Shown here: positions 36,040-56,844 of the stretch, piece by piece
Position numbering within the stretch: position 1 is the first letter of the stretch
Layout of the letters: the number at the start of each line of letters is the position of its first letter
Source of the DNA: Thiohalobacter sp. IOR34
GTDB taxonomy: Bacteria > Pseudomonadota > Gammaproteobacteria > Thiohalobacterales > Thiohalobacteraceae
Direction: 5' to 3'
Assembly (NCBI RefSeq): GCF_030406045.1
Contig: NZ_CP128988.1
Location: 124,001 to 188,000 of the forward strand
DNA length: 64,000 bases
Position numbers and translations under genes: made by a program
Notes under the pieces: model-generated
Told to the model about the DNA's origin: nothing
Databases searched by the model: none
Seen by the model: the letters and a program-made list of their open reading frames with translations, nothing else

Positions 36040-36449
36040 GTTGCCTCCCGGGTCAGTGCTGTTCATGATGGCCTGACCATAACGTGTCGGGGGGTGACCG
36101 GTAAAGCCGGTCACGGGAGAAAGGGGGCGTTTTGCCGCGCTCCACCTTGGATGATACTAAGACAAACGATAACAAAGCCTCATTCAGCGGGTCTCTGGGC
36201 GATCAGCCCGCAAGGCGCAATGGCGCCGGCAGGGTGATTCCCTGTCAAGCCATTGCAACGTTGCGGATGGCCGTCCAGAGGCCCGCCCGCAGGGAGCTTG
36301 CCAGGCGCCCCGGCTCTGCGTTGTGCCCCTTGGCAAGGGCGGGCCATTCCCTGCGGAGCACGCCTTGATCCGGGGCGCCTGGCAAGCTCTGAATGAGGCT
36401 TTGTTATCGTTTGTCTTAGTAAGTCCTGCTTGAGCGGGTTGGAGGGGCG
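36040..36449. other. Intergenic gap holding MITE family B copy 1
   Basis: 410 bp between the CDGSH gene and the ABC ATPase gene. A short GACCGGTAAAGCCGGTC palindrome is at about 36097-36113. The rest is the 263-bp MITE (36157-36419). No other gene seen. Confidence 0.7.
36157..36419. mobile_element. MITE family B, copy 1
   Basis: 263 bp with perfect 31-bp terminal inverted repeats (outer 20 bases CTAAGACAAACGATAACAAA), flanked by TA on both sides (36155-36156 and 36420-36421) as expected for IS630/Tc1-type target duplication. Inside are two large hairpins, 36188-36285 and 36294-36389. It encodes no transposase and so is non-autonomous. Identical to copy 2 (41966-42228) except at 36199 (G here, A there). 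Confidence 0.9.
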
Positions 36450-38316: not shown

Positions 38317-38720
38317 GGGGGAAGACAGGAGCCAGGAGCTAGCCCGGATATTGCACCAAGGCGGTCTGCATGATCGGCATTGAGGCTGTTATACAAGACC
38401 GAGATGACCATGAGAGAGCCGTTTGGGCAGGTTACACTTTGTACCTGTTCGATCGACTCCGGGCATTGCCCGCCGTGGATCCCCCGATCGCGGCCTGGAG
38501 GCCGCTCCTACCCTCTAGCCCGGATATTGCACCAAGGCAGGCTCCGTGGGCCGGGGTGGCAGGATGGCGCGGTACCCCTTGCGCCTCGATCGCGGCCTGG
38601 AGGCCGCTCCTACCATGGTGCCGCCATGCCCCGTAGGAGCGGCCTCCAGGCCGCGATAGGGCGGACGTTGCCCGCCAACCAACTTCCAACGCCCGGCTTC
38701 CAGCTTCTAGCTTCCAGCTT
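38317..38720. repeat. Repeat mosaic between DUF4124 and speE genes
   Basis: 404 bp of mixed repeats: TAGCCCGGATATTGCACCAA at 38340-38359 and again at 38516-38535; a GTACACTTTGT...GACTCCGGGCAT-type module at 38430-38470 (also at 55111-55147, inverted); REP-like palindromes at 38487-38511 and as an inverted pair at 38588-38657; and a 7-bp tandem repeat AGCTTCY from about 38695 that runs into the 3' end of speE. No gene seen. Confidence 0.75.
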
Positions 38721-41766: not shown

Positions 41767-42231
41767 TTAACCCGGCAACTATCCATGTCATGTTCAGCCG
41801 GTCACACACCGGCCTGCCCTTTGCAGGTCATATGGTTAGGGGCTTCAAGGATGGCCCGGCTCCGCGTTATAGCTCTTGCCAAGGGAATCACCCTTGCCTG
41901 CGAGCTATGCCTTGATCCGGGCCATCCTTGAAGCCCTGAACACGACATGGATAGTTGCCGGGTTACTAAGACAAACGATAACAAAGCCTCATTCAGCGGG
42001 TCTCTGGACGATCAGCCCGCAAGGCGCAATGGCGCCGGCAGGGTGATTCCCTGTCAAGCCATTGCAACGTTGCGGATGGCCGTCCAGAGGCCCGCCCGCA
42101 GGGAGCTTGCCAGGCGCCCCGGCTCTGCGTTGTGCCCCTTGGCAAGGGCGGGCCATTCCCTGCGGAGCACGCCTTGATCCGGGGCGCCTGGCAAGCTCTG
42201 AATGAGGCTTTGTTATCGTTTGTCTTAGTAA
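41767..42231. mobile_element. MITE family A (split by family B copy 2)
   Basis: Family A occupies 41767-41965 plus base 42231, 200 bp in all. Terminal inverted repeats begin TTAACCCGGCAACTATCC and extend 31 bp with one mismatch. Flanking TA duplications are at 41765-41766 and 42232-42233. Inside, a perfect 20-bp stem (41840-41859 with 41917-41936) encloses a 57-nt loop. Two small hairpins (CCGG/CCGG and CCTGC/GCAGG) lie at the left. No coding capacity. Confidence 0.85.
41966..42228. mobile_element. MITE family B, copy 2 (inserted in the end of family A)
   Basis: 263 bp, one base different from copy 1 (A at 42008). Perfect 31-bp terminal repeats, TA on both sides (41964-41965 and 42229-42230). 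The TA is the one inside the terminal TTAA of family A, showing that B inserted after A. Confidence 0.9.
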
Positions 42232-54586: not shown

Positions 54587-55012
54587 TCAGGGCTTGGCCG
54601 GCCGCTTGCCGCCGCCGCTCATGTCCTCCAGCCAGCGGTACCAGCCGGAACTCTGCTCCGGGGCCAGGTTGGCGCGCGTCTCGTAGAGTATCTCCAGCTC
54701 CCGGGCCAGGGCCTTGATGAAGCTGTCCTCGCGTGCCTGGCGGCAGCGGCTGTCGAGCCGGGCCAGCAGACCGAAGGCATCGAGCTCGCCGAGAATGTTG
54801 TAGGTGCTGGCCAGCAGCAGGTTGTAGGCCGAGAGGTGGCCGGCGGTCCACTCGATGAAGGCGCGTTCCGCTTCGCCACCGGCATCCCGGGCCTCCAGGT
54901 AGGTGGCGCAGCTGGCGCCGCCGACACCGAGCACGGCGTAGTTGCCGTTGATATCGCGCGCGATGGCCGGCAGACAGAGCAGGAGCAGGCCGAGCAGCAG
55001 GCTGGTTCTCAT
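54587..55012 (-). CDS. Small exported protein of unknown function
   Basis: 141 residues with a signal peptide (MRTSLLLGLLLLCLPAIA) and an all-helical mature part: GVGGASCATYLEAR, FIEWTAGHLSAYNLL, CRQAREDSFIKALARELEIL. The pattern of two cysteines and YxxGYxxAYN-like helix 2 recalls Rap1a/Tai-type immunity-like or HdeA-like helical proteins, but I cannot assign it. Converges on the fructosamine kinase gene; upstream is a repeat island. Confidence 0.6.
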   Translation of the reverse strand: MRTSLLLGLLLLCLPAIARDINGNYAVLGVGGASCATYLEARDAGGEAERAFIEWTAGHLSAYNLLLASTYNILGELDAFGLLARLDSRCRQAREDSFIKALARELEILYETRANLAPEQSSGWYRWLEDMSGGGKRPAKP

Positions 55013-55767
55013 GGGCGTTTCCCGTGTCTTCAGCCCTGTAGCGGCCGGGGGTGGGAAAAAGATTAGCCCGCATATTGCACGAAGGATTCGATGCTCAGGG
55101 CGGAGGGCAGGATGCCCGGAGTCAATCGTACAGCCACAAAGTGTACCCCGCCACGAGGGCCTATTTGCGAGCCTCCTGGGGCCTGTCAACACCACGCCAA
55201 TCGCGGCCTGGAGGCCGCTCCTAGGGCCTGTTAACACTATCCCAATGGGTTCTGCTGGGACTCTTTTTCCGTCCAGCAAGGCAGAATGAGCGAAATGTAG
55301 TCAGTCTACATGAGCGAATGATAACGCCGCTGGGCGGAAAAAGAGCCCCAGCCCTCCGGGTTGCGCCTGAAAAAGCGCCACTCCGCGTTGCTCGTCGTTC
55401 ATTTGGAGTCACCAAACCTCTCTCCTCGCGCCTTGATTGGCGCTTTTTTCAGGTGCAACAGAGCCCATTGGGATAGTGTTAACAGGCCCTAGGGGGCATG
55501 GCGGCACCATGGTAGGAGCGGCCTCCAGGCCGCGATCCCCGGCGGGTCCAGTCACGCCATCAGCCGGGGTTCTGATGCAATATTCAGCCAGCCCGCATAT
55601 TGCGCGAAGGATTCGATTTTCGGGTCCCATGGGGGAGAGCGGTTCCACGAGATGGAAGCGCCGTGCCAGGTCGCTGGTCGAGCGAATGCTGGCGGCATCG
55701 TTCTCGTCGTGCGGCATGTCGGGCCGCCGGGAGGAGGAGCTTATGGGGGAAGGGTATCCCGCCTGGC
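55013..55767. repeat. Repeat island upstream of the small exported protein
   Basis: 755 bp without a gene. From left: TAGCCCGCATATTGCACGAA at 55064-55083 with GATTCGATGCTCAGGGC; a GATGCCCGGAGTCAATCGTA module (55111-55147); GGGCCTGTCAACACC (55185-55199) leading into a REP-like palindrome (55199-55223); MITE family C (55225-55488); the inverted REP (55512-55536); GATGCAATATTCAGCC (55573-55588); and GCCCGCATATTGCGCGAAGG (55591-55610). Confidence 0.75.
55225..55488. mobile_element. MITE family C inside an inverted REP pair
   Basis: 264 bp with inverted ends beginning GGCCTGTTAACACTATCCCA (about 25 bp, perfect), flanked by CTAG on both sides (55221-55224 and 55489-55492), as from an IS5-type YTAR target. 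Two hairpins lie inside: 55254-55277 with 55329-55352, and 55361-55380 with 55438-55458. No transposase. Confidence 0.85.
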
Positions 55768-56844
55768 TCAGAGCTTACCGCTGTTGTGGAAGGGGCGGCT
55801 CAGTTCGTGAACCGCCTCGACCATCACGGCGGCGTGTTCGGGATCGATCTGCGGGTGGATGCCGTGTCCCAGGTTGAAGACATGCCCCGAACCCGGGCCG
55901 AAGTCCTCCAGCACCCGACCGACCTCGCGGCGAATGACCTCGGGGCTGGCGTAGAGCACCGCCGGGTCGAGATTGCCCTGCAGGGCGACGCGGTCGCCGA
56001 CCCGCCGCCGGGCTGCGCCGATGTCCGTGGTCCAGTCGAGGCCCAGGGCATCGGCCCCACTCTCGGCCATCTCTTCCAGCCACTGTCCGCCGTTCTTGGT
56101 GAACAGGATCACCGGCACCTGGCGCCCCTCGCTCTCCCGCACCAGACCCGTGACGATCTGCCGCATGTAGGCCAGGGAGAAGGTCCGGTAGGCACGCGGG
56201 GAGAGGGCGCCGCCCCAGGTGTCGAAGATCATCAGCGCCTGGGCGCCGGCCGCCACCTGGGCGTTCAGGTAGTCGGTCACCGCGCGGGCGGTGACGTCCA
56301 GAATGCGCTGCAGCAACCCGGGACGCTCGTACATCATCCCCTTGATGTGGCGGAAATCCTTGCTGGAGCCGCCTTCGACCATGTAGGTGGCCAGCGTCCA
56401 GGGACTGCCGGCGAAGCCGATCAGCGGCACCCGGCCGGCCAGTTCACGGCGGATGGTGCGCACCGCATCCATCACGTAGCGCAGCTCCTGCTCCGGGTCG
56501 GGCACGCCGAGCCGTTCGATGTCCGCCTCGCTGCGCAGCGGCCGTTCGAAGCGCGGCCCTTCGCCGGTCTCGAAATACAGGCCCAGGCCCATGGCATCCG
56601 GCACGGTGAGAATGTCCGAGAACAGGATGGCGGCATCCAGCGGAAAGCGCTCCAGTGGCTGGAGGGTGACTTCGCAGGCCAGCTCCGGATTCATGCACAG
56701 ATCCATGAAGCTGCCGGCCTTCTCGCGGGTGGCGCGGTACTCCGGCAGGTAACGCCCGGCCTGGCGCATCATCCACACCGGGGTGACATCCACGGGCTGG
56801 CGCAGCAAGGCACGGAGGAATCGGTCGTTTTTCAGTTCGGTCAT
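55768..56844 (-). CDS. hemE: Uroporphyrinogen decarboxylase
   Basis: 358 residues. [31 protein letters not shown] (catalytic Asp), and [17 protein letters not shown] mark HemE. Its leader is a tandem CTTGGCG repeat. It decarboxylates uroporphyrinogen III to coproporphyrinogen III, feeding heme to the cbb3 oxidase among others. Downstream of gltBD as in many gammaproteobacteria. Confidence 0.96.

Follow-up and report, generated by a model that had tools for sequence, protein, structure and literature searches.

Insertion sequences (ISs) that target REPs have been described, and the passages of PMC1525189 cited here give REP association for ISPpu9, ISPa11 and ISRm22 in 7 of 7, 6 of 6 and 10 of 10 copies, respectively. 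A second related system is the IS427 group, whose features in the cited part of PMC3281130 include two overlapping frames, a DDE transposase, short inverted ends and 2-bp TA flanks; in the rows given there, nine of ten elements have 2-bp repeats and one has a repeat of 4. Among the literature matches listed, titles and the beginnings of abstracts included none on a MITE inside a REPIN or on MITEs of these organisms.

Here we describe a locus in a 64,000-nucleotide window (the whole stretch of DNA analysed) at which an element, termed MITE C, lies within a REPIN. The likeness to the REP-targeting ISs is that of a mobile element inside a REP; in contrast to the complete association seen in those ISs, this context is found in 2 of 13 near-full MITE C copies. 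MITE C is very probably a non-autonomous, IS427-like MITE of the IS5 family, most likely moved in trans by an IS of 809–810 bp, and the locus a nested insertion in a REPIN that involved no homing to REPs.

Anatomy of MITE C and of the surrounding REPIN

The left REP (55200–55223, plus strand) and the right REP (55513–55536, minus strand) are complementary at 24 of 24 positions and enclose a 266-bp insert, in agreement with the original prediction of an element in the loop of an inverted REP pair. MITE C itself occupies 55224–55489 (plus strand) and is bounded by terminal inverted repeats (GGGCCTGTTAACACTATCCCAATGGG and its reverse complement). TA is present on both sides, on the left at 55222–55223, within the head of the left REP, and on the right at 55490–55491. 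The CTAG predicted on either side was also found (55221–55224 and 55489–55492); the 264 bp first reported is the stretch between these two motifs, and the length measured between the TA flanks is 266 bp. The REPIN loop (55492–55512, plus strand) begins with G, where sampled loops have C next to the REP head. Its spacer, GGGGCATGGCGGCACCATGG (55493–55512), is the reverse complement of the spacer at the 38-kb locus, as had been proposed, although that spacer lies at 38613–38632, one base away from the position originally given (38614–38633).

The arms of MITE C (55220–55257 and 55456–55493) are 95% complementary, and the whole stretch is predicted to fold as a single nested hairpin (z = −16.8; 0 of 100 shuffles as good). 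No complete ORF of at least 80 aa lies within 55224–55489, the overlapping ORFs entering from outside. Being short, multicopy, bounded by terminal inverted repeats and devoid of a transposase gene, MITE C is a MITE.

The REPIN is part of a larger repeat. Flank module a, a MITE-like half end (GGGGCCTGTCAACACCACGCCAAT; 55178–55201, plus strand), is fused directly to the left REP, and the outer flank module b extends from 55535 to 55604 (plus strand; end coordinate approximate). Within the window, the 15-base MITE end is matched three times at up to 2 mismatches (0.02 expected): two of the matches are the ends of MITE C itself, and the third is at 55180, 45 bases upstream. For the REP there are nine window matches (0.01 expected), and both counts exceed chance. 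The locus is flanked by two ORFs on the minus strand: one (54587–55012) has a signal-like start, its start codon having been chosen inside a longer listed ORF, and the other (55768–56844) we take to be that of uroporphyrinogen decarboxylase (hemE). Between 54900 and 55900, no structured RNA matched at Rfam gathering thresholds.

The MITE C family and its candidate driver

The 13 near-full copies lie in a genome consisting of a single contig of 2,961,281 bases (2.96 Mb), the window being its positions 124001–188000. Five of them, the window copy counted, show 99–100% identity to the window copy, and the genome additionally contains a decayed copy and a version of 44 bp. Matches to MITE C were present in 10 of the 56 genomes searched, its own genome counted. 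When named genomes were scanned with a 24-base end pattern, at least 120 stretches matched; the matches listed (80 of the at least 120) include many from Candidatus Thiodiazotropha and other lucinid symbionts, together with Thiohalobacter thiocyanaticus, Sedimenticola, Chromatiales and other gammaproteobacteria. Named copies were taken from an exact pattern, which favours young copies.

Some relatives carry longer MITE copies of 304–352 bp with extra internal stretches (L180, L183, L188 and L189). In genome G031 (L192), the MITE C interior matches an element with different ends, so the interior may predate the ends or be exchanged between elements. Short palindromes of 20 bp (AGGGCCTGTTAACAGGCCCT) were also observed, at five sites in the window's own genome at up to 2 mismatches and at a further one, L105, at three (loci L099, L100, L101, L103, L104 and L105); a sixth match at up to 2 mismatches is the end of the MITE copy L064. 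These palindromes occur in 5 of the 56 genomes, with none in the backwards control, and look like MITEs that may have collapsed via GTTAAC, which is common to both ends in direct orientation.

Five ISs of 809–810 bp in the same genome have ends (AGGGCGTGTTAACA) that differ from those of MITE C (AGGGCCTGTTAACA) at one of the first 14 bases. MITE C thus has, as expected of a MITE, ends in common with an autonomous element, 13 of 14 end bases being those of the five ISs. The IS carries an IS5-type transposase in two overlapping frames of 135 and 132 aa (overlap at 567–597 of L094). Transposase family profiles matched in both frames, at 80.1 bits (DUF4096) and 46 bits (DDE_Tnp_1), both above cut-off, and the NCBIfam scores of the two halves, 103.9 and 101.1 bits, fall below the cut-off of 110. 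TA is found on both sides of the IS in five of five copies, as for a 2-bp target duplication; these flanks could also be read as having arisen without duplication. The two overlapping frames, the DDE transposase, the short inverted ends and the 2-bp TA flanks are those given for the IS427 group in the cited part of PMC3281130, and place the IS as a likely IS427-like member of the IS5 family, even though its 809–810 bp compare with 832–865 bp in the rows of that source.

At E values up to 1e-25, the first IS frame has matches in 2 of the 56 genomes, at five places in the window's own genome and two in G052; two of the five own copies match over residues 1–109 of 135 only. In two genomes with many MITE copies, G006 and G009, the IS transposase had no match at this threshold, so such relatives must have, or have had, another driver. 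Judged from the shared ends, the transposase of the 809–810-bp IS would act in trans on the ends of MITE C. These data define a family of MITEs, and its likely driver, in lucinid symbionts and in the family to which Thiohalobacter belongs.

Target site and REP context of the copies

To describe the target site we used 66 distinct MITE copies (11 from the window's own genome, 17 from relatives and 38 from named genomes), a set without copies that lie close to the end of a locus, contain N, have repeated flanks or differ at more than 2 end positions, and from which the own loci L062, L064, L065 and L066 are missing. TA is present on both sides of 51 copies and lacking on one or both sides of 15. 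With strands merged, the sites of the 51 TA-flanked copies are CTAA (24), CTAG (21), TTAA (5) and GTAA (1), YTAR being found at 50. CTAG accounts for 6 of the 129 non-coding TA contexts in the window, as defined by a crude mask, compared with 21 of 51 insertion sites, and is therefore favoured. The original prediction of a CTAG duplication did not survive this comparison: copies insert at YTAR and are flanked by TA at both ends, CTAG being just one form of the site. A 4-bp CTAG duplication was rejected, as copies at CTAA sites are bordered by CTAG at one end and by CTAA at the other, and copies at unrelated sites without a CTAG duplication, which the prediction had named as its refutation, were indeed found.

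An alternative placement of the ends would make the element AGGGCC...GGCCCT, inserted between Y and R without duplication of TA. Among own and relative copies, 53 of 56 ends have A as the inner base and just 39 of 56 have T as the outer one, and no copy is flanked by CA at both ends or by TG at both ends, all of which speaks for this placement. However, the outer T is found at 74 of 76 ends of named copies (for which the search pattern required the inner A, so that the inner count is biased), the outer base differs between the apparently orthologous L175 and L188, which indicates changes after insertion, and the IS427-group rows cited above have 2-bp repeats in nine of ten cases and 4 in the other. 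We therefore regard insertion without TA duplication as very unlikely and retain the YTAR site with TA on both sides.

REP loops had further been proposed as a preferred insertion target, in the manner of ISs that home to REPs. REP context was read for 15 copies (the 13 near-full ones, the decayed one and the 44-bp version), and this proposal was not supported. Among the near-full copies, only the window copy and L056 have REPs on both sides; at L064, REPs start 70 bp beyond the MITE end. The other 11 near-full copies lie outside REP pairs, as do all five ISs. Comparison with chance, which the original prediction had suggested as a check, gave a rough expectation of 0.7–1.6 REP-pair copies against the 2 observed: 0.7 by TA sites (P for two or more, 0.14) and 1.6 by length (P for two or more, 0.50). 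Both values use approximately 1,020 REPs and a crude coding mask that takes eight of nine window REP heads as coding; it thus understates the non-coding fraction, which leaves both expectations rough. A score above 8 for an inverted repeat spanning the insertion site was reached in 2 of the 66 sites, both of them the REP cases of the window's own genome. In 1,200 random flank pairings, the score of L056 (11) was reached by 13 pairings, partly owing to repeats common to the flanks, and that of the window copy (22) by 4.

MITE C or its transposase might still favour REPIN loops or heads, as ISPpu9, ISPa11 and IS1397 favour REPs. The two REP-resident copies occupy equivalent positions in REP heads and, since these heads are CTAC/GTAG both in real loops and in the consensus, strict YTAR targeting would predict fewer REP matches, indeed almost none. 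Moreover, the cited part of PMC1525189 lists ISNm1106, of the IS5 family, as REP-associated at 4 of 7 and 7 of 14, so such association is open to members of the family. Against this stand the 11 near-full copies and five ISs outside REP pairs and the clear inverted repeat at just two sites. The same source sets REP targeting at an association above 45% in at least four copies, compared with 15% for MITE C (2 of 13) and 0 of 5 for the ISs. A preference for REPs is thus improbable, and on the REP context of the 15 copies, the inverted repeats across the 66 sites and the rough expectation, REP homing was rejected.

The nested insertion that we favour would depend on TA instead. In the consensus REPIN, TA occurs just in the two heads that border the loop, so any TA-dependent insertion in a REPIN falls at the loop border. 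MITE C would need TA, which a REPIN offers at its CTAC/GTAG heads only, and would thereby have landed at the loop border of a REPIN that already existed. TA availability accounts for the apparent homing to a REP loop, which makes this case a useful null for claims of REP-seeking elements.

In both REP-resident copies, the loop-side base makes CTAG: the window copy has TAG-GGGGC where sampled loops have TAC-GGGGC, and L056 has CTA where the consensus has GTA. In 131 sampled REPs, CTCC is followed by TAC in 109, by TGC in 13, by TAG in 2 (both MITE sites) and by other bases in 7. A common CTAG variant among REPs was sought and not found, since GGNCGCTCCTAG matches just the two MITE-interrupted REPs, with no uninterrupted REP among its matches, and in both the G is the first base of the MITE itself; read backwards, the pattern has 18 chance matches, showing that a pattern this short is by itself not rare. 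The L056 loop is present a single time in the genome and offers no empty form for comparison, and the empty-site comparison rests on paralogous REPINs. Either two rare variants were struck, or the base was altered at or after insertion. The loop-side base is the main remaining support for the idea that the IS427-like transposase attacks REP heads, a GTAG head being lost on one side and CTAG left on both, with the base change as a trace of the reaction and not a variant that was there before. We give this little credence; were it true, an IS5-type MITE would be a disruptor of REPINs.

Another repeat, MITE D, is present twice in the window (36155–36419 and 41962–42228) and has 24 near-full copies in the genome, 21 of them at 98–100% identity. 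TA lies on both sides of 17 of the 20 copies examined (L317–L336), and the remaining three have a MITE C or an IS inserted at one end, the same CTAA having been hit by two MITE C copies and one IS. One MITE C copy has a MITE D copy inserted in its end. A REP lies within 60 bp of 1 of the 20.

The REPIN family of the genome

The genome holds approximately 1,020 REPs (503 and 517 at up to 3 mismatches) and three Y1_Tnp (RAYT-like) matches above cut-off (L344, L345 and L346). The inverted REP pair with GTAG heads facing the loop and the number of REPs are those of a REPIN system, for which the Y1_Tnp matches would be candidate RAYTs, whereas many of the sampled copies lie within larger repeats that at one end look like the end of the MITE or IS. 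REPs were sampled as first listed or chosen by pattern and not at random.

The REPIN and MITE C might now form a single composite unit, movable by a RAYT as a long-loop REPIN. The REP arms are intact and paired in the predicted fold, and three Y1_Tnp matches are available in the genome; yet the two REP-resident copies differ in REP variant and in loop, so no amplified composite is seen, and we find this hardly credible. A MITE nested in a pre-existing REPIN remains our reading of the locus.

That the loop can lie in either orientation, as originally suggested, was confirmed: among sampled REPINs with flank modules a and b, the two orientations were counted 22 and 5 times. The tally covers 49 of 63 distinct sampled REPINs, the rest being without a recognised flank module. 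By inspection, the window loop has the minority orientation; it is interrupted and stands outside the count. Inversion between the arms or separate insertions could each produce the flip, and loops lying both ways between the same flanks bear on how REPINs move or recombine.

The flank GTTAACACCACGCCAAT precedes 74 REPs (up to 3 mismatches), and in 23 of them its first 14 bases match AGGGCCTGTTAACA with no more than 2 mismatches (AGGGCCTGTTAACA read backwards gave 7 matches in the genome), so that some REPINs of the family are attached to an apparent MITE or IS end. REPs fused to such an end were recorded at L102, L110, L111, L112, L144–L173 and in the window (55178–55201), where the left REP is one of them. 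As far as these end matches indicate, a REPIN-bearing repeat may have started out as a MITE.
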